From the NCBI GenBank assembly GCA_028868695.1, contig JAGWTZ010000020.1:1-47303 (forward strand): a stretch of 47,303 nt of DNA, in the 5' to 3' direction. Source of the DNA: Alphaproteobacteria bacterium (lineage in GTDB: Bacteria > Pseudomonadota > Alphaproteobacteria > Rhizobiales > Aestuariivirgaceae). The position numbers and the translations under genes were made by a program. Shown piece by piece: positions 3,678 through 22,073 of this stretch. The stretch's first letter is position 1. Each line of letters opens with the position of its first letter. The notes under the pieces were generated by a model. The model worked only from the letters and a program-made list of their open reading frames with translations, made no database searches and was not told the DNA's origin.

Positions 3678-4546
3678 GCATCGACCCCCGTGGAACGCTT
3701 GGCGAGGAAGGCACGGACCATCAAGGCAATGAAAGTCACATACATCAGGATGAAGGACAGGGCAGCCCCCAGCGGCCAATTGTTGGATTCAAGAAACTGG
3801 TTCTGGATGGCGTTGCCGATGTTCCAATTGTTCGGCCCGCCCAAAATGTCCGATGTCAGGAACGTGCCAAGACAGGGGATGTAGACGAGGATGATGCCTG
3901 TGATCACGCCAGGCAGGGTGAGCGGCCAGGTCACCAGCCAGAATGTCTTGGCCTGGGTGGCGCCGAGATCTAGGCTGGCCTCAAGGAAACTGCGATCCAG
4001 CTTCTCGATGGTGGAATAGAGCGGAAGCACCATGAAGGGCAGATAGACGTAAACAAGGCCCATGATGACCGCATAGGTATTGTTGAGCATCTCATAGGGC
4101 CCCAGCCCCACGAGGCCGAAGGCCTGGTTTACCACGCCCGTGGTGCGGAAGATGGAATACATCGCGTATGTGCGGATCAGCAGGTTGATCCAGAACGGAA
4201 GGATCAACAGCAGGAGCAGCAATGGCCGCCAGCGCGGCGCCGCAAAACACACCGCCATGGCCAGCGGGTAGGCCAGAGCCAAACAAAGCGCGGTGGCAAT
4301 GGCACTCGTCCAGATCGCGCGCCAGAGGAGCACGAGATAATTGTGCCCGGCGGATTCAACATAGTTCTGGAAGGTGTTCATGTAGTCATAGGCGGTGGTG
4401 GAGATTTCACCGTCAATGACCGCCTTTGATGAAAAGCTGAGGACAAAAAGAAAGGCCATCGGAATGGCAAAGAAGAGCAGCATCCAAAGGCTGCCGGGCG
4501 TGGCCAGCGTCAAGAATACGCGTTTGAAATCTTTCCAATCATCCAA
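3674..4546 (-). CDS. potB: Polyamine ABC transporter permease (PotB-like)
   Basis: A 290-residue permease with six predicted transmembrane helices, the first at about 18-38, and an EAA-loop at about 189-213 (EASLDLGATQAKTF...). It is the heterodimer partner of the following PotC-like protein, to which it is joined by an ATGA stop/start overlap. It is separated from the upstream binding-protein gene by 120 bases holding a strong hairpin, which probably lowers permease expression relative to the binding protein. Confidence 0.92.
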   Translation of the reverse strand: MDDWKDFKRVFLTLATPGSLWMLLFFAIPMAFLFVLSFSSKAVIDGEISTTAYDYMNTFQNYVESAGHNYLVLLWRAIWTSAIATALCLALAYPLAMAVCFAAPRWRPLLLLLLILPFWINLLIRTYAMYSIFRTTGVVNQAFGLVGLGPYEMLNNTYAVIMGLVYVYLPFMVLPLYSTIEKLDRSFLEASLDLGATQAKTFWLVTWPLTLPGVITGIILVYIPCLGTFLTSDILGGPNNWNIGNAIQNQFLESNNWPLGAALSFILMYVTFIALMVRAFLAKRSTGVDA

Positions 4547-4619
4547 GATTTGTCGCTTCCCTCGTTGCGGTCTTTTTGCCGCGTTACAAATACTTTAGCC
4601 AATGGGGCAGATAAGGCAA

Positions 4620-4640
4620 GGGCGGCGAAATACGCCGCCC
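4620..4640 (-). promoter_or_regulatory. Intercistronic stem-loop between potD-like and potB-like genes
   Basis: GGGCGGCG at 4620-4627 pairs perfectly with CGCCGCCC at 4633-4640 around an AAATA loop. It lies 26 bases after the binding-protein stop on the transcribed minus strand and no T-run follows. In ABC importer operons such a hairpin often protects the upstream binding-protein mRNA or partly terminates transcription, giving excess binding protein. That role is inferred from position. Confidence 0.6.
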
Positions 4641-14192: not shown

Positions 14193-15268
14193 TATTGACC
14201 TGTCTTGCTGGGAGCTGTGAGGATTTGGCCGGGATAGATCAGGCCGGGGTTGCGGATCTGGCCCTTGTTGGCTTCGAAGATGATGGTGTAGTTCCGGCCA
14301 GCGCCATAAATGTCACGCGACAGGCGCCAGAGATTGTTGCCGGGCTGAACGGTAATGGTGTGGGGCTGTGGCGCAACAGGGCTGGCGGCTGCGTTTCCAT
14401 CGGCTGGGGCGGCGGGCTGCTGGGTTTCAGCAAGCTTGGCGGGCTCTTCGCGCTTGAATGGCAGGGCCACGCGGGAGAGCACGCTGCCATCTTGCGTCAC
14501 CTCATCGGCGCGCAATTCATGCGTGCCGGGGGCAATGCCGTGTTCATCCTTGTAGGCCCAATTGCCTGAGGCATCCGCCCTGGCATCGCCTGCCAAGGCA
14601 TTGTCGACATAGAGCCGCACGTCATTGCCGGCATGGGCGCGGCCTGCAAATTGAATGGCGCCAGCACCGTCATAATCCACAGCATCGATGCTCACTGAAT
14701 CCGGCGCGGCCTTGGGGGCCTGCACCACTTTCGGCGCCTCGCCCGGGGCGAGAACGGCAACCGTGGTTTCAGCGGGCGCCTTTGGCTTGATGGAAACGGC
14801 CACGGTTTGGCTGGAGGGCGTTGCCTTGTCACCTGATGTGGCGAGCAGCGACAAGGCCCCTTCACCTTCCGGCAATGGCTTTTCCGGAGTGATGACAAAC
14901 TCGCCGGCATCGTTGGCTTTGGCGGTGGCGATGGTGGTGCCGTTCAGCTGCAGGGCAACATCGGCGCCCGGCGCGGCACGCCCGGCGATCACGGCATTGC
15001 CATCCGGGCTGATGCGGGCCGTGTCAAAGCTGGGCACCACCTCGGGCGGCGAAGCCGGCTGGGGCGCGGCCTGGGCAGCGGCAACTGGCTGTGCTTCGGC
15101 TGGCTTGGCCTCCGGTGCGGCAGGTGCAAGCTGCGCCGGCGCCTCAACCTTCTGGGGCAAAGGCGGCGTGGCCGGGCGCAACAGGGCAAAATAGCCGGTG
15201 GCTGCGGCGGCTGCGACAACCAGCCCGGAGAAGACCACCAAGGGCGTTTTGTTCATGAAATGATTCAA
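14192..15268 (-). CDS. LysM peptidoglycan-binding protein with N-terminal membrane anchor
   Basis: A 358-residue envelope protein. A short basic head and one helix at about 8-30 are followed by an Ala/Pro-rich linker (about 33-80), two similar beta-rich segments (about 84-160 and 190-270) in which GRAAPGADVALQLNG and GRAHAGNDVRLYVDN look like repeated Ig-like modules, a second linker, and a LysM domain at about 303-352 (HTITVQPGNNLWRLSRDIYG...). It is probably anchored in the inner membrane and binds the cell wall. Such LysM proteins recur in Hyphomicrobiales with unknown precise role. It is transcribed into the Atm1-type gene with overlapping stop and start, and is divergent from the LOG gene. 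Confidence 0.85.
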   Translation of the reverse strand: MNHFMNKTPLVVFSGLVVAAAAATGYFALLRPATPPLPQKVEAPAQLAPAAPEAKPAEAQPVAAAQAAPQPASPPEVVPSFDTARISPDGNAVIAGRAAPGADVALQLNGTTIATAKANDAGEFVITPEKPLPEGEGALSLLATSGDKATPSSQTVAVSIKPKAPAETTVAVLAPGEAPKVVQAPKAAPDSVSIDAVDYDGAGAIQFAGRAHAGNDVRLYVDNALAGDARADASGNWAYKDEHGIAPGTHELRADEVTQDGSVLSRVALPFKREEPAKLAETQQPAAPADGNAAASPVAPQPHTITVQPGNNLWRLSRDIYGAGRNYTIIFEANKGQIRNPGLIYPGQILTAPSKTGQ

Positions 15269-15344
15269 CTGGTAAGTTAGCGTTTCGGCTCACATATAGG
15301 CGTGAGTCGGCCCCACAGTAAGGCCCCTGATTGGAAAAGCGGAT

Positions 15345-15953
15345 ATGTCTTCAAAGCCCCCCCGGCACAGGTTGTGCGTCTATTGCGGCTCAAGCCCAGG
15401 CAAAAGCCCGGCCTATCTGGCGGCGGCCGGAGCCTTGGGCGAGGCGATGGCGGCGGCCGGAATCGGGCTGGTTTACGGAGGCGGCTCCATCGGGCTGATG
15501 GGCGAGGTGGCCCGCGCGGTTCTCAAATCCGGCGGGCATGTGACTGGCATCATCCCGCAATTCCTGGTGGCGAAGGAACGGATGCTGGATGGTGTGAGCG
15601 AGCTGATCGTCACCCGTTCCATGCATGAGCGCAAACACCTGATGTTTGAACATTCCACGGGCTTCGTCGCCCTGCCCGGCGGCATTGGCACGCTGGAGGA
15701 ATTGGCGGAGATCACCACCTGGGCGCAGTTGAACCAGCATGCAAAGCCGATCATCGTGTGTGATGTGGCGGGCTATTGGGGGCACTTGCTGGGGCTGCTG
15801 CAACACATGCGTGCAGAAGGCTTCATCCGCGCCGAAGCCGATGTTTTCCTCGACATTGCAAAATCTGTTGGTGAGGTGATCCCGCTTTATGAGCAACGCC
15901 TTGCCACGGCGCGGCCCAAGATCCCGCTGGCGGCAATCAAGGATCAGTTATGA
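15345..15953 (+). CDS. LOG-family protein (TIGR00730; nucleoside 5'-monophosphate phosphoribohydrolase type)
   Basis: A 202-residue Rossmann protein. The N-terminal CVYCGSSPG and the signature PGGIGTLEE at 111-119 identify the LOG/TIGR00730 family. Plant and some bacterial members release cytokinin bases from riboside monophosphates, and others act on AMP. The Arg-Lys pair at 96-97 lies in the usual active-site region. It is divergent from the LysM gene across a 76-base gap and convergent with rarD, whose last six bases overlap its end. The family is clear; the physiological substrate is unknown. Confidence 0.9.
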   Translation: MSSKPPRHRLCVYCGSSPGKSPAYLAAAGALGEAMAAAGIGLVYGGGSIGLMGEVARAVLKSGGHVTGIIPQFLVAKERMLDGVSELIVTRSMHERKHLMFEHSTGFVALPGGIGTLEELAEITTWAQLNQHAKPIIVCDVAGYWGHLLGLLQHMRAEGFIRAEADVFLDIAKSVGEVIPLYEQRLATARPKIPLAAIKDQL

Positions 15954-16850
15954 GGCGTTGCGCAATTCGGCGCGCAGTGACGACCACGAATAGATCGCCA
16001 GCGCGCACCAGATGATCGCGAAGCCGGCCAGCTTCCAGGGATTGAGCGTTTCGCCAAACCAGAACACGGCGGTGAGGAACACCATGGATGGCGAAAGATA
16101 TTGCATCAGGCCAGCCGTGGAATAGCGTATCAACTTGATTGACGCGGAATAGAACAGCAGCGCGCCCGCCGTGTAGAGGCCGCAGCCCATCAGCATCAGC
16201 GTGCTGAATGAATCCTGCCCGAAATGCAATTCGCCGCGCGTTGAGAGCCAATAGTCAACAGCCAGCAGCGGGATGAGTGTCAGAACCACTTCCACCAGGA
16301 AACCATCGATCGGCCCCACTGGCATGATCTTCCGCAGGTAGCCATAGAGGCAAAAAGTGGCGGCCAGCGACAGGCCGATAAATGGAAAAACGCCTGTGCC
16401 CAAAGTCACCACCAGCACGGCCACAACGGCAAGGCCAATCGCAACCATTTGCGGCCGGGTAAAGCGCTCTCCGAGAAAAATGAAACCGACAGCCACGTTC
16501 AAGAGCGGATTGATGAAATAACCCAGGCTGGCATCCAGCGTGTGGCCGTTGGTTATGCACCAGATGTATAGCGTCCAATTAAAGACCACCAGCAGGCTGG
16601 TGAAAAACAACAGGGCCAGAAGGCGCGGGCTTTTCAGGATGCTCCAGACGCGCGGCAGCAAGCCCGTGTAAAGGACAACGCCGAGACCGATGGGCACGCT
16701 CCACACCGCGCGGTGGACGGCAATCTCCAGCGGGTTGATGTAGCGGATGAAGCCAAAATAGGCCGCCATTGTGCCCCAGAAGAGGTGGGCCGTTATGGCA
16801 TAGATCACGCCCTTGTGCTGGCTGCTGAGATTTTCGGTGATTGCCGTCAT
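15948..16850 (-). CDS. rarD: RarD-like EamA transporter
   Basis: A 300-residue inner-membrane protein with about ten helices in two EamA halves. The opening HKGVIYAITAHLFWG and the central NWTLYIWCITNGHTLDASLGYFINPL region (split here across about residues 115-140) are typical of the RarD subgroup. Its transport substrate is not established. It lies 64 bases downstream of cimA and probably belongs to the cysS-peptide-cimA unit. Its end overlaps the LOG gene tail to tail. Confidence 0.88.
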   Translation of the reverse strand: MTAITENLSSQHKGVIYAITAHLFWGTMAAYFGFIRYINPLEIAVHRAVWSVPIGLGVVLYTGLLPRVWSILKSPRLLALLFFTSLLVVFNWTLYIWCITNGHTLDASLGYFINPLLNVAVGFIFLGERFTRPQMVAIGLAVVAVLVVTLGTGVFPFIGLSLAATFCLYGYLRKIMPVGPIDGFLVEVVLTLIPLLAVDYWLSTRGELHFGQDSFSTLMLMGCGLYTAGALLFYSASIKLIRYSTAGLMQYLSPSMVFLTAVFWFGETLNPWKLAGFAIIWCALAIYSWSSLRAELRNAS

Positions 16851-16914
16851 TTGGCCCGCTTAAGCCAAGCCCAAGCGCCGCACAATCGCGCGCACGCGCA
16901 TGGCTGCCCTGTTT

Positions 16915-18480
16915 TCAGGCAGCAACGCCTTCGCGCAGCAGCTTGAAATAGATCGAATCCAGCAGCGCCTGGAATGAGGCTTCAACGATGTTGGGAGAAA
17001 CACCCACCGTGTACCAACGGTTGCCCTTGCCATCGCGGCTTTCCACCAGAACCCGGGTGGTGGCCCCCGTGCCGCCGTTGAGGATACGGACCTTGAAGTC
17101 CACCAGTTCCATGTCGGCGATGTGCTTCTGGTATTTGCCAAGGTCCTTGCGCAGCGCCACGTCCAGCGCGTTCACCGGGCCATTGCCCTCGCCAGCGTTA
17201 ATGTAGGTTTCGCCATCCACCTGAACCTTGACGACAGCTTCCGAATGCATCTCGCCCTTGAACTGCTCAACTGAGGTGCGGAAGGAGATCACGTCGAAAT
17301 AATGGGGCACGGAGCCAAGCACACGGCGCGCCAAGAGTTCAAATGATGCATCGGCGCCGTCATAGGCATAGCCTATCGCCTCGCGCTCTTTCACCTCGCG
17401 CAGAAGCTGATCAAGCTTGGTGTCATCCTTCTTCACAACCAAGCCGATGCGTTCCAGCTCGGCCAGCAGGTTGGATTTTCCGGCCTGGTCAGACACCAGA
17501 ATGCGCCTGCGGTTGCCCACGCTTTCCGGCTTCACGTGCTCATAGGTTTCCGGCTCCTTGGCCAGCGCCGAGGCATGGATGCCCGCCTTTGTGGCGAAGG
17601 CCGACTTGCCCACATAGGGCGCTTGCGCGAAAGGCGCGCGGTTCAGCAGTTCATCGAAGGCGCGCGACACATTGGTGAGTTCACTCAAGTTCGCGCCGAT
17701 TTCGAAGCGCGTGGCATAGTGCGGCTTGAGGCCCAATGTGCCGATCAGCGAGATCAAATTGGCGTTGCCGCAACGCTCGCCAATGCCGTTCAGCGTGCCC
17801 TGGATCTGGCACACGCCCGCTTCCACCGCAGCTAGCGAATTGGCCACGGCCTGTTCCGTGTCGTTATGGGCATGGATGCCAAGATGCGAGCCGGGGATCA
17901 TTTTCGTCAGTTCACGGACGATTTCGGCCACTTCCCCCGGCAAGGTGCCGCCATTAGTGTCGCAGAGCACAATCCAGCGCGCGCCAGCATCAAGGGCTGC
18001 CTTGGCGCAAGCGGTGGCATAGGCAGCATTGGCCTTGAAGCCGTCGAAGAAATGCTCACAATCCACCAGCACTTCCTTGCCCGCGGCCTTGGCGGACTTC
18101 ACGCTGTCGGTGATGGTTTCAAGGTTTTCCTCATTGGTGCAGCCCAGGGCCACGCGCACATGATAGTCCCAGCTCTTGGCCACAAAGCAGATAGCCTTGG
18201 ATTTCGCCTGAAGCAACGCCTGCAAGCCGGGGTCATTCGCGGCCGAACGCCCTGCCCGCTTGGTCATGCCAAAGGCGGTGAAGGTGGCCTTGGATACGCG
18301 TTCTTCGCCGAACAGCGCGGTGTCCGTCGGGTTGCCGCCGGGATAGCCGCCCTCGATGTAATCCACACCCAGCTTGTCGAGCAGCGCCATCACCGCCAGC
18401 TTGTCTTCCAGCGAGAAGGTCACACCCGGTGTCTGCTGGCCATCGCGCAGCGTGGTATCAAACAAGGCGATGCGGCGCAT
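16915..18480 (-). CDS. cimA: Citramalate synthase
   Basis: A 521-residue member of the alpha-isopropylmalate/homocitrate synthase family of the CimA type (TIGR00977). The TIM-barrel start carries DTTLRDGQQTPG at about 8-19 with the metal-binding Asp8, and HAHND near residue 206 supplies metal-binding histidines. The C-terminal LeuA-dimerisation-like regulatory domain includes AGEGNGPVNALDVALRKDL. It condenses pyruvate and acetyl-CoA to (R)-citramalate in the threonine-independent isoleucine route. Its start forms an ATGA overlap with the stop of the 42-residue peptide, so its translation is probably coupled to the peptide and cysS. Confidence 0.92.
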   Translation of the reverse strand: MRRIALFDTTLRDGQQTPGVTFSLEDKLAVMALLDKLGVDYIEGGYPGGNPTDTALFGEERVSKATFTAFGMTKRAGRSAANDPGLQALLQAKSKAICFVAKSWDYHVRVALGCTNEENLETITDSVKSAKAAGKEVLVDCEHFFDGFKANAAYATACAKAALDAGARWIVLCDTNGGTLPGEVAEIVRELTKMIPGSHLGIHAHNDTEQAVANSLAAVEAGVCQIQGTLNGIGERCGNANLISLIGTLGLKPHYATRFEIGANLSELTNVSRAFDELLNRAPFAQAPYVGKSAFATKAGIHASALAKEPETYEHVKPESVGNRRRILVSDQAGKSNLLAELERIGLVVKKDDTKLDQLLREVKEREAIGYAYDGADASFELLARRVLGSVPHYFDVISFRTSVEQFKGEMHSEAVVKVQVDGETYINAGEGNGPVNALDVALRKDLGKYQKHIADMELVDFKVRILNGGTGATTRVLVESRDGKGNRWYTVGVSPNIVEASFQALLDSIYFKLLREGVAA

Positions 18481-18608
18481 CAGACGAGACCTTTCAAGTG
18501 GAGAGCCGTGTAGATGACCAGCCCGAGGATGACGAACTTCAGCGCGATGAAAACCAGCCAGCGCTTGGGGAATGGAAATGCGGAGTTGGAGGGCTTTGGC
18601 GCGCTCAT
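18480..18608 (-). CDS. 42-residue single-pass membrane peptide between cysS and cimA
   Basis: A complete small reading frame, ATG at 18608 to TGA at 18480. The peptide starts [18 protein letters not shown] and continues with an uninterrupted hydrophobic helix ([20 protein letters not shown], residues about 19-38) ending in KGLV. The frame has an ATGA overlap with the cysS stop at 18605-18608 and another with the cimA start at 18477-18482. Two exact 4-base couplings with both neighbours are strong evidence that it is translated. I recognise no family. The Pro/Ser-rich basic head and single helix suggest a small inner-membrane protein, topology N-in. Confidence 0.75.
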
Positions 18609-20029
18609 CGCTTCACCTCCCACTCAGTTTTCAGTTCGCCCGAGGCGGGGTCTTTCACGTCCTTGATCGACACGCCCATAGCTGCCAGCTGATCGCGGAT
18701 TTCATCAGACTTCTTCCAGTCCTTCGCCTTGCGGGCCGCCAAACGTTCGCTGAGTTTTGCCTCAACAAGATCATCGTTGGCCAATGAAAAATCCAAATCT
18801 CTCTGTGCAAGAATTGCTTCATTTTGTGATGTCGCATCTGCGAGCCCGGTGAGGTTTAGGAATTTCGCTAACTCAGCAATAGCCCAATTTTTGCCATCGA
18901 GCGCATCGTTGTAAATTGAATCAGCAAGCGTGAACGCCAGAGGCGTATTCAAATCATCCAGCAATGCATTTTCTATCCTGTTGAATGAATCACCACCACC
19001 AACTGCACCTAACGCAATTTCGCGATACTTGCTCAGCTTGGCTTCAGCTTCGCGCAATCTGGGCACCGTAAAATCAATTGGTTGTCGATAATGGCTCATG
19101 AGCATTGCCGTCCGTAAGACATCTCCACTCCACGGACGTCCACCAAATGCATCGGTCCCCATCAACTCGTGAATTGAATAAAAATTCCCAAGGCTCTTGC
19201 TCATCTTCTGGCCTTCCACCTGAAGGAAGCCGTTGTGCATCCAGTAGTTGGCCATGACGCTTGTACCGTGGGCACAGCGGGATTGGGCGATTTCGTTTTC
19301 GTGGTGGGGGAAGATCAAATCCAGCCCGCCGCCATGGATGTCGAACACCTCGCCCAAATGGGCCTTGCTCATCACGCTGCATTCAATGTGCCAGCCGGGG
19401 CGGCCGCGGCCCCAGGGAGATTCCCAGCCCGGTTCCTCGGGCGAAGACTGCTTCCACAGCACAAAGTCGCCCGGGTTTTTCTTGTGCGCGTCCACGGCAA
19501 CACGTGCGCCCGCCATCTGGTCTTCCAGCTTGCGGCCCGAGAGCGCGCCATAGTCCTTCATCGAGGACACATCAAACAGCACCTCGCCGCCCGCCTCATA
19601 GGCATGGCCACGCCCCACCAGCGTGCGGATCATTTCCACCATGCCTTTGATGTGCTCGGTGGCACGGGGCTGCACTGTGGGCGGAAGGCAGCCCAGCGCC
19701 GTCACATCCTTCTGATACTGATCATAGGTTTTTTCGGTGACATGGCGGATGGCCTCGTTCAGCGGCATGCCGGGGTAATCCCGCAAGGCGCGGGCGTTGA
19801 TCTTGTCATCCACATCGGTGATGTTGCGCACATAGGTGACATGATCCGCGCCATAGGTGTGGCGGAGCAGCCTGTAGAGCACGTCAAACACAATCGCGGG
19901 CCGCGCATTGCCGATGTGGGCAAAGTCATAGACCGTGGGGCCGCAGACATACATGCGCACATTGGAAGGATCGATGGGAACGAACACTTCCTTCTGGCGG
20001 GTCAGCGTGTTGTAGAGGCGCAAAGTCAT
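18605..20029 (-). CDS. cysS: Cysteine--tRNA ligase
   Basis: A 474-residue class I aminoacyl-tRNA synthetase that charges tRNA-Cys. Zinc ligand Cys29 lies in [10 protein letters not shown], the HIGH-type motif is HIGN at 38-41, a second zinc cysteine is Cys217 in WHIECS, PHHENE follows at 241-246 and KMSKS is at 275-279. The start is supported by AAGGAAG a few bases upstream. Oddly, bases about 18,780-19,200, which encode the part just after KMSKS (residues about 280-415), are near 46% GC by hand count, while the flanks exceed 60%. The reading frame and motifs stay intact, so this looks like a recombined segment, not decay. Confidence 0.96.
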
Positions 20030-20287
20030 GCTTCTTCCTTAGGCTGCTGCCCGGGAAGCGCTTGGTAGTTGAATTTGAGTAAGCGGCGCCCAGCCAGCGA
20101 TTATGTCGCTAGTTGCAAATAATAATGCTGCAAATGGCAGCGGTTGGGCGTTTGGTCAACATTGCCGCCAAAGATGAAGCATTGGCCATGCGCCGTCAAG
20201 GCCGGGGTTTGGCCATGGTTCACGAGGCCTGAAGGCTGCGGCAATCGGCGCCGGGATGGGCGGGCTCGGAGCTGGTAAACATGCAGC

Positions 20288-20707
20288 ATGGATGCTTCTA
20301 CCATGGTTTCGCCGCCATTCGAGGCGATTGCCAGCGACCGCGAGATTGGCGCGCTGGTGCATGATTTTTATGGCCGGGCACGGGCCGACGCAACACTGGG
20401 CCCCATTTTCGAAAAACATGTCAAGGATTGGGACCGGCACTTCCTGCTTCTGGCCGATTTCTGGTCTTCAGTGCTTAACACTTCGGGCCGCTACAAGGGC
20501 CAGCCCATGATTGCGCACATGCGCCTGCCTGAGCTTGAGGAACACCATTTTGCCCATTGGCTAAGTATGTTCGAGACCTCGGCCGAAGCCACCCTAAACC
20601 CCAAGGCCGCGGCTGTGGCCAAGTTCAAGGCGGCGCGGATTGCCCAGAGCATGCGCCTTGGCCTGCGCCAGCTTCTGGGCAAATCAATTCTCGAGCCGCT
20701 GGACTAG
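20288..20707 (+). CDS. Group III truncated haemoglobin
   Basis: A 139-residue globin of the trHb3 group. It has Tyr28 at the B10 position (HDFYGRA), WDRHFLLLADFWSSVL around residues 48-63, the proximal His77 in AHMRL and HFAHW at about 87-91 containing the tryptophan common in the group. Proposed roles of this group include nitric-oxide handling and microaerobic metabolism; none is proven generally. Its end overlaps the GST gene by four bases, tail to tail. The 258-base gap before it shows no gene and no clear Fnr- or NnrR-like palindrome. The start at 20288 lacks a close ribosome binding site; Met6 is an alternative. Confidence 0.88.
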   Translation: MDASTMVSPPFEAIASDREIGALVHDFYGRARADATLGPIFEKHVKDWDRHFLLLADFWSSVLNTSGRYKGQPMIAHMRLPELEEHHFAHWLSMFETSAEATLNPKAAAVAKFKAARIAQSMRLGLRQLLGKSILEPLD

Positions 20708-21387
20708 CGCGGCCCCTGGCCGAACAGCACCTTGCGTTCATCGTCCGTCATCGGCTTGGAATAGGATTGCGGCGCCTGGGCATAGGCCCGCACCACTGCC
20801 GGGCGCGCCTTGATGGCATCAAACCAGCGCTTCAGATGAGGGAAATCCTCAAGTTTCTGCTTGTGGTTTTCATGCGGCACAATCCACGGATAACTGGCCA
20901 TGTCGGCAATGGAATAGGCGCCAGCCACAAATTCACGATCCGCCAGCCGCTTGTTCAAAACGCCGTACAGGCGCGCGGTTTCCTTGGTGTAACGTTCCAT
21001 GGCATAAGGGATTTTCTCTGGCGCATAGACATTGAAATGCCCGTTCTGCCCCGCCATCGGGCCAAGGCCGCCCATCTGCCAAAACAGCCACTGCATCACT
21101 TCGGTTCGCCCGCGCAGATCTTTCGGCAGGAACAGGCCCGTCTTTTCAGCAAGATATTGCAGGATGGCGCCGGATTCAAAAACGCTGATGGGCTTGCCGC
21201 CATCGGAGGGTGCGTTGTCTACAATGGCGGGAATGCGATTGTTGGGGGCAATGGCCAGGAATTCCGGCTTGAATTGGTCGCCCTTGCCGATATCCACGCG
21301 GTGGATGGTGTAAGGCAGGCCGGCTTCTTCGAGGAAAATCGCAATCTTGTGGCCGTTGGGCGTGGGCCAATAGTGCAGGTCAATCAT
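20704..21387 (-). CDS. Glutathione S-transferase (YfcG/YghU-like Nu class)
   Basis: A 227-residue GST. The thioredoxin-like N-terminal domain opens MIDLHYWPTPNGHKIAIFLE with the Thr-Pro-Asn near residue 11 that replaces the usual Tyr/Ser in the Nu class. NNRIPAIVDN carries the cis-proline, and FESGAILQYLAEK is the gamma-glutamyl contact; the helical C-terminal domain follows. Nu-class enzymes act as disulfide-bond reductases with two bound glutathiones. An inverted repeat 13 bases upstream suggests dedicated regulation. Confidence 0.9.
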   Translation of the reverse strand: MIDLHYWPTPNGHKIAIFLEEAGLPYTIHRVDIGKGDQFKPEFLAIAPNNRIPAIVDNAPSDGGKPISVFESGAILQYLAEKTGLFLPKDLRGRTEVMQWLFWQMGGLGPMAGQNGHFNVYAPEKIPYAMERYTKETARLYGVLNKRLADREFVAGAYSIADMASYPWIVPHENHKQKLEDFPHLKRWFDAIKARPAVVRAYAQAPQSYSKPMTDDERKVLFGQGPR

Positions 21388-21400
21388 GTCTTGGTCTTTC

Positions 21401-21419
21401 TGTAATTCACTCGATTACA
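21401..21419 (-). promoter_or_regulatory. Palindromic operator candidate before the GST gene
   Basis: TGTAAT at 21401-21406 and ATTACA at 21414-21419 form a perfect 6-base inverted repeat with a 7-base centre. It starts 13 bases upstream of the GST ATG, with an AT-rich TATATG element just beyond. The size and symmetry suit a dimeric repressor (MarR, HxlR, ArsR or TetR type), but no regulator gene adjoins other than the Lrp-type one. Confidence 0.5.
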
Positions 21420-21468
21420 CATATAGATGCTGGGCCAAATAGTTCAAGCGGCCCGGTCGACCACATGA

Positions 21469-21885
21469 TCAAGCTGGCCCCAAAATGATGAATGTTTCAC
21501 TTTTTGCCACACCATCAAGGGAGCGAACCGATGTCATCAAATTGTTGAGCTCCCCCATTGTGGTAACTTCAATTTCGGCAATCATGTCCCAAGTGCCATT
21601 CGTGTTGTAGACCGCTGCGATACCGGGGATGCGTTTTATAGCCGCGATGGCACTCTTTACTCGAGAATGGGCCAGTTCAATCAGCATAACCGCGCGCAGT
21701 TGATCATCGCGAACTTCATCGCGCAGACGAACGGTGAAGCCCTTTATGTCGCCGTTCCCGACCAACCTGTCGAGTCGCTTTTGCGCGGTGGCGCGCGCCA
21801 CGCCGAGAATTTGCGCGAGCTGAGGCACAGATGCCCTGCCATTGATGCGGAGCTCGGCAATGAGGCGCTGATCCAAATCATCCAT
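21469..21885 (-). CDS. Lrp/AsnC-family transcriptional regulator
   Basis: A 138-residue regulator. The N-terminal winged helix-turn-helix (about 1-50) contains GRASVPQLAQILGVARATAQKRLDRL, and the C-terminal RAM/AsnC ligand domain (about 65-135) includes GTWDMIAEIE. Members sense amino acids and often control a divergent gene. This one is divergent from the class V aminotransferase gene across 188 AT-rich bases, so that gene is the likely target. The recognition-helix region has TAQKR, where many Lrp proteins have TV..R, which is ordinary variation. Confidence 0.9.
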   Translation of the reverse strand: MDDLDQRLIAELRINGRASVPQLAQILGVARATAQKRLDRLVGNGDIKGFTVRLRDEVRDDQLRAVMLIELAHSRVKSAIAAIKRIPGIAAVYNTNGTWDMIAEIEVTTMGELNNLMTSVRSLDGVAKSETFIILGPA

Positions 21886-22073
21886 TCTAATTTACCTTTT
21901 CGCCACTAGGTTTAACTATTTCGGCATTATATCGTTCTTTTAAGCAGTTTGCATCCTTTTTTGAAAAGACGTCGCGGCGCATGAAACGGCGGTGACTAGC
22001 CTGTAGCTCTCCCCCAAATAAAGGCTGTTCGCATTGGTTCGACAACGCATTTTGCAATTCGGAGTGACCACCC
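21886..22073. promoter_or_regulatory. Divergent promoter region, Lrp regulator / class V aminotransferase
   Basis: These 188 bases are much more AT-rich than the rest of the window, with several T-runs around 21,940-21,965, and lie between two divergently transcribed genes. Lrp-family proteins favour such curved AT-rich DNA. GGAG about nine bases before the ATG at 22074 is the aminotransferase ribosome binding site. I cannot mark individual regulator sites. Confidence 0.5.

Follow-up and report, generated by a model that had tools for sequence, protein, structure and literature searches.

Among the described proteins closest to the one considered here are AcrZ, KdpF, and MgrB, small single-pass proteins that regulate transporters and kinases, and CydX, a small single-pass subunit of a respiratory oxidase that we compare below on the same features as the oxidase subunit CcoM. 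Short reading frames of another sort, the leader peptides, are found in branched-chain amino acid operons. We analyzed a short frame that lies between cysS and cimA in a 47,303-nucleotide stretch of DNA, the whole of which we call the window. A first-pass annotation had described this frame as an uncatalogued membrane peptide locked between its two neighbors, with a double coupling to them that was hard to explain by chance. Judged by how its codons change among relatives, the frame is a real gene under protein-level selection. Its product, as read from the sequence, is a member of an unnamed family of small single-pass membrane proteins; the family is new, and the kind of protein is known.

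The frame is complete from ATG to TGA, spans 42 codons, and lies on the minus strand, which the first-pass annotation had not specified; the plus strand reads otherwise. That annotation had also reported exact ATGA overlaps on both sides. The overlap with the cysS stop codon is present as described, whereas the junction with cimA reads TGATG and has a single base in common. Because the final cysS codons carry a Shine-Dalgarno-like sequence, GGAGGTGA, and the start codon of the small gene overlaps the cysS stop, the small gene would be translated in the window genome by coupled re-initiation from cysS, and cimA would then follow through TGATG. The positions of these features are collected in Table 1.

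Table 1. Positions of the small gene, its neighbors, and their junctions in the window.
Feature	Positions	Strand	Basis
Small gene, predicted membrane protein	18480..18608	-	42 codons plus TGA; conserved frame, selection, conserved place
cysS, upstream neighbor of the small gene	18605..20029	-	TIGR00435, 451.3 bits, cut-off 340 (NCBIfam)
cimA, downstream neighbor of the small gene	16915..18480	-	TIGR00977, 604.3 bits, cut-off 450 (NCBIfam)
ATGA overlap of the small-gene start codon and the cysS stop	18605..18608	-	sequence
TGATG junction of the small-gene stop and the cimA start, single common base (A at 18480)	18478..18482	-	sequence
Shine-Dalgarno-like GGAGGTGA within the final cysS codons	18613..18620	-	sequence; similar purine-rich core in cysS tails of the genus
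Codons 15-39 of the small gene, predicted single helix	18492..18566	-	AlphaFold2; membrane-spanning by hydropathy

Across 30 junctions fetched from the genus, the cysS tail contains a Shine-Dalgarno-like purine-rich core in 23 and, by our own count, ends in ATGA in 22, whatever gene comes next. With this core and the frequent ATGA, the cysS ends of the genus form a ready-made site for a coupled gene. Tight coupling to cysS is not general, because in 5 of the 13 genus carriers that have the small gene in place it starts some 40-140 bases past cysS. On the plus strand of the window, divergent from cysS, we also observed a 139-residue frame (20288-20707) reminiscent of group III truncated hemoglobins; a Pfam search with it gave no match at 1e-5.

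Frame length alone is uninformative here, since 82 frames of at least 30 amino acids overlap positions 15500-22000. The pattern of codon change is more specific. Across 419 close pairs, the frame of the small gene has a pN/pS of 0.47, and the two remaining sense frames have 1.13 and 1.37; the antisense frames give 1.17, 0.65, and 1.60. Internal stops are absent from the small-gene frame of 44 sequences, compared with 10 to 92 in each of the other five frames. Synonymous change exceeds nonsynonymous change (pS > pN) in 915 of 946 pairs and does not in 31; one very close pair (L084/L085) has a dN/dS of 1.24. For the window copy, pS > pN holds against all 43 relatives. The rows for this test were chosen by protein similarity, which favors conserved ones, a bias that the frame controls answer partly. 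The checks proposed by the first-pass annotation thus point the same way: codon change among relatives is mostly synonymous, no stops lie inside the strong matches of carrier relatives, and relatives are recovered by tblastn, with the gene found at E below 1e-4 in 16 of 61 genomes (the window genome, itself one of the 16, and 60 relatives).

A wider search with a profile of 44 sequences (A2), at an order-wide threshold of E<=0.001, located the small gene in 60 of 397 genomes of the order, spread over 27 of 141 genera and ten family labels. By the record titles, this order is Hyphomicrobiales. A scan of a named genome collection gave 36 loci, including Aestuariivirga, Rhodoblastus, Anderseniella, and Tepidamorphaceae; Aestuariivirga litoralis KCTC 52945 and Rhodoblastus acidophilus are among the species with a relative. 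In 54 of the 60 carrier genomes the small gene is flanked by cysS and cimA, all three being on one strand, and in two it lies elsewhere (G005 and G740); of the remaining four, two reach contig ends (G060, G214), and in the other two the fetched DNA includes cysS and shows no cimA (G236, G266). In many carriers about 500 bases separate the small gene from cimA, and at the two loci checked this gap holds a GNAT acetyltransferase (L083) or a GFA-family enzyme (L066); other carriers have a gap of similar size on the cysS side. A weaker second copy stands in tandem in two genomes (L167 and L180; E about 2e-4). Within the same cysS-cimA gap, the second, weaker relative lies in tandem at 4623-4778 of L066 and at 3254-3346 of L180.

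Members of the family have 37-53 residues and a conserved core, PFP..W..Y...K...G. P12, W17, and K24 are present in all 44 aligned rows, and some far relatives outside profile A2 keep the lysine and not the tryptophan. The window copy is divergent: a head tryptophan that 35 of 38 aligned rows possess is missing from it, and its residue 20 is F (F20), a position occupied by Y in 43 of 44 rows. The single transmembrane helix and the basic, proline-rich head that had been proposed are both recognizable, the former as one hydrophobic stretch with a best 19-residue Kyte-Doolittle mean of 2.53 (2.01 to 2.95 across the 44 rows) and the latter as four prolines, two lysines, and one arginine ahead of that stretch. 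AlphaFold2 likewise predicts one helix, residues 15-39, and little else, as in a single-pass membrane protein (mean pLDDT 81.6, pTM 0.43; block means 97 for residues 21-30 and 94 for residues 31-40). No significant bias of the conserved positions toward one side of the helix was found (p 0.28), and the charge beside it varies from -2 to +3 on the N side and from 0 to +2 on the C side.

The description of the peptide as uncatalogued agrees with our family searches. The window protein matched no family in Pfam, NCBIfam, or PHROGs, and a comparison with PDB sequences turned up nothing convincing. For the 44 relatives only scattered weak matches were seen, with best E values of 0.0021 in Pfam (one of 44), 0.011 in NCBIfam (one of 44, with LH1 alpha at E 0.012 in three of 44) and 0.015 in PHROGs (one of 44). 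A phage origin was rejected, as the small protein has no match in viral contigs and no convincing match in PHROGs. In the portion of the literature covered, on small rhizobial proteins, Aestuariivirga genomes, and cysS/cimA, we found nothing on the small gene.

Within the genus the gene comes and goes. It is carried by 15 of 37 genomes, a count that leaves out five weak matches (E 0.007 to 0.07; G008, G019, G022, G027, and G031). Since 22 of the 37 have no convincing match, the protein is dispensable. The window genome has a second, weak match (G000:C76, E 0.008), which was rejected, the stretch being read as part of another gene. A cimA match is found in 36 of the 37 genomes, and in all 30 junctions fetched cysS lies upstream of cimA, with the small gene between them in 13 and absent in 17. 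Four of these 17 join cysS directly to cimA by ATGA, five have a gap of 70-180 bases, and in eight the two genes stand several hundred bases apart, with a DUF559-like frame in the gap (all read by eye). G005 and G026, both among the 17, carry the small gene elsewhere, and the seven genomes from which no full junction was fetched have no convincing match to it. On a cimA tree of the 30 junctions, the in-place label changes four times, and all four changes are forced by well supported branches. The gene is therefore not locked between cysS and cimA as had been claimed, given the 17 junctions that lack it and the several relatives that carry it at another place. For the same reasons, the data lend no support to a functional link with either neighbor.

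The DUF559-type, endonuclease-like genes in these gaps (L115, at 284-796, and L112, L118, L121, L122, L134, L136, and L139) were so read by eye, together with a Pfam run on the L115 protein only. They occupy two distinct regions of the cimA tree, and their flanks resemble, by eye, short palindromic repeats. At another locus (L055) a DUF559-type gene lies between the small gene and cimA (4114-4629).

Copies away from both cysS and cimA were found at six loci (L043, L044, L045, L049, L052, and L057), whose genomes have no other match at E<=0.01; a seventh moved copy is in G740 (L164). At L043, L044, L049, and L164 the small gene faces a stress-protein gene, identified by Pfam as Usp in L043 and by eye in the others. 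All four of these copies have upstream a box of the form TTGACGCAG[GA]TCAA, placed 103-104 bases before the small-gene start in L044, L049, and L164 and 204 bases before it in L043. Another box lies directly before the stress gene in L043, L044, and L049, and L164 also has a second box. In first-order Markov simulations of each 300-base upstream stretch, the box arose in 24 to 46 of 20000. The same kind of box stands some 270-360 bases before the ccoN match at all eight genus loci fetched; such boxes are putative FNR/FixK sites. As the four boxed copies are close kin, they may stem from one event. No such box was found in the window or within 300 bases upstream of the small gene at L045, L052, and L057. 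The moved copies at L045 and L052 adjoin a frame with CxxCH c-type heme motifs (by eye; the L052 protein has no Pfam match at 1e-5), and the one at L057 has SCO1/SenC and PCuAC genes nearby; at these three loci the neighbors are on the strand opposite to the small gene. Two further genes lie close to the moved copy at L043, one for a Crp-type regulator and one of the cytochrome b/ferredoxin type.

Outside the order, a cimA search of 142 genomes of the class matched 81, and the best 30 of these 81 loci were fetched, comprising the window, one more locus of the order (L201), and 28 from outside it. In 19 of the 28, cysS lies upstream on the same strand, mostly within some tens of bases; the gap is roughly 100 bases in L209 and L210 and about 530 in L213. 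The small gene was not found at any of the 28 loci, and a small hydrophobic frame in the L210 gap does not look like a member of the family. A class-wide profile search gave no convincing match outside the order (best outside E 0.006). Weak matches at the class level (16 of 385 genomes at E<=0.05) were set aside as noise, except those in G000 and G071, which belong to the order. The adjacency of cysS and cimA outside the order, where the small gene is missing, makes that adjacency seem older than the small gene.

We consider it probable that the gene encodes an uncharacterized single-pass membrane accessory or regulatory protein of a family found here only in one order, and that it is coupled to cysS in this genome. 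The product would sit in the inner membrane and, as a small subunit, assist or regulate a larger membrane protein encoded outside the cysS-cimA operon. Its gene would have entered between the older cysS-cimA pair and afterwards been lost, moved, or duplicated in some lineages. A chance reading frame, which the abundance of short frames in this region would allow, is scarcely credible against the wide conservation, the frame-specific selection, and the conserved position. Nor does a small type I membrane toxin fit well: the product is short and hydrophobic, with one helix and basic residues, but the gene occupies a housekeeping operon over much of its range, no Rfam match lies near it, and viral contigs gave no match to the protein, making this reading very improbable. 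The ATGA and TGATG junctions, together with a product rich in I, L, and V and the role of cimA in making an isoleucine precursor, could instead indicate a coupling or leader ORF, in which translation rather than the product sets the ribosome flow from cysS to cimA, perhaps with branched-chain amino acid sensing through the many I, L, and V codons. We regard this as highly improbable. Four junctions without the small gene pass from cysS to cimA directly, many relatives have a long gap before cimA, some copies stand away from it, and specific residues, including K and W, are fixed. The position directly before the regulated gene, as in an attenuator, holds in the window and fails across relatives. 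No terminator or antiterminator was found between the small gene and cimA, where the overlap leaves no room for a terminator, and positions 15000-22000 have no Rfam match.

The absence of a fixed partner among the oxidase genes tested (ccoN, cydA, and ctaD, in the genus of 37) is the reason for preferring an accessory or regulatory membrane protein over one that assists low-oxygen or heme-copper respiration in the way of the small oxidase subunits, a reading that we rate as unlikely. It draws on the box shared by the four copies facing a universal-stress-protein gene and the eight ccoN loci, on the CxxCH, SCO1/SenC, and PCuAC neighbors of other moved copies, and on cydA, which is rarer in carriers (3/15 versus 13/22, p 0.04, kinship ignored; G000-G036). 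Against it, the boxed copies count as one event given their kinship, the three remaining copies lack the box and have their neighbors on the other strand, and among good genomes the cydA difference has p 0.06 (3/14 carriers versus 9/15 others), with kinship again ignored. The co-occurrence expected of a small respiratory oxidase subunit was not found. ccoN is present in 14 of 15 carriers versus 17 of 22 others (p 0.37), and a cbb3-specific subunit was rejected because this association is not fixed, carrier G005 having no ccoN match. An aa3-specific subunit was rejected as well, since ctaD has no match in 3 of 15 carriers (G012, G014, and G015); it has none in 2 of 22 others. A low-oxygen role is thus only suggested, and low-oxygen electron transport is the most interesting, though unproven, reading of function. 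We would put forward, as a doubtful conjecture, an order-wide, unrecognized microprotein that arose between cysS and cimA, tunes low-oxygen electron transport or stress survival, mostly rides on cysS translation or transcription, and in one lineage was re-wired to an FNR/FixK-type locus.

Overall, these results add a family of small membrane proteins, unnamed but well supported, that spans ten family labels within a single order, together with an outgroup that has cysS-cimA without the small gene and a set of losses, moves, and duplications to work with. The small gene looks like an addition to the translated tail of an essential gene that already had a ribosome-binding sequence and often ATGA, and with its seat on such a cysS end, how a microprotein arises and is maintained becomes testable.

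Like the leader peptides of branched-chain operons, the small gene is short, encodes many I, L, and V residues, and immediately precedes a gene for isoleucine synthesis; unlike them, its sequence is conserved across an order, and it often lies about 500 bases from cimA and sometimes away from it. From AcrZ, KdpF, and MgrB it differs in having no Pfam or NCBIfam match; it resembles them, in a distant comparison by kind, in its size, its single helix, and the lack of an enzyme of its own. CcoM and CydX differ from the small protein, which has no curated-family match, no adjoining oxidase gene in the window, and no fixed co-occurrence with ccoN, cydA, or ctaD. What CydX and CcoM (the latter named in PMC10433244) have in common with the small protein is a length of about 40 residues, one helix, and presumed action by binding to a larger membrane protein.
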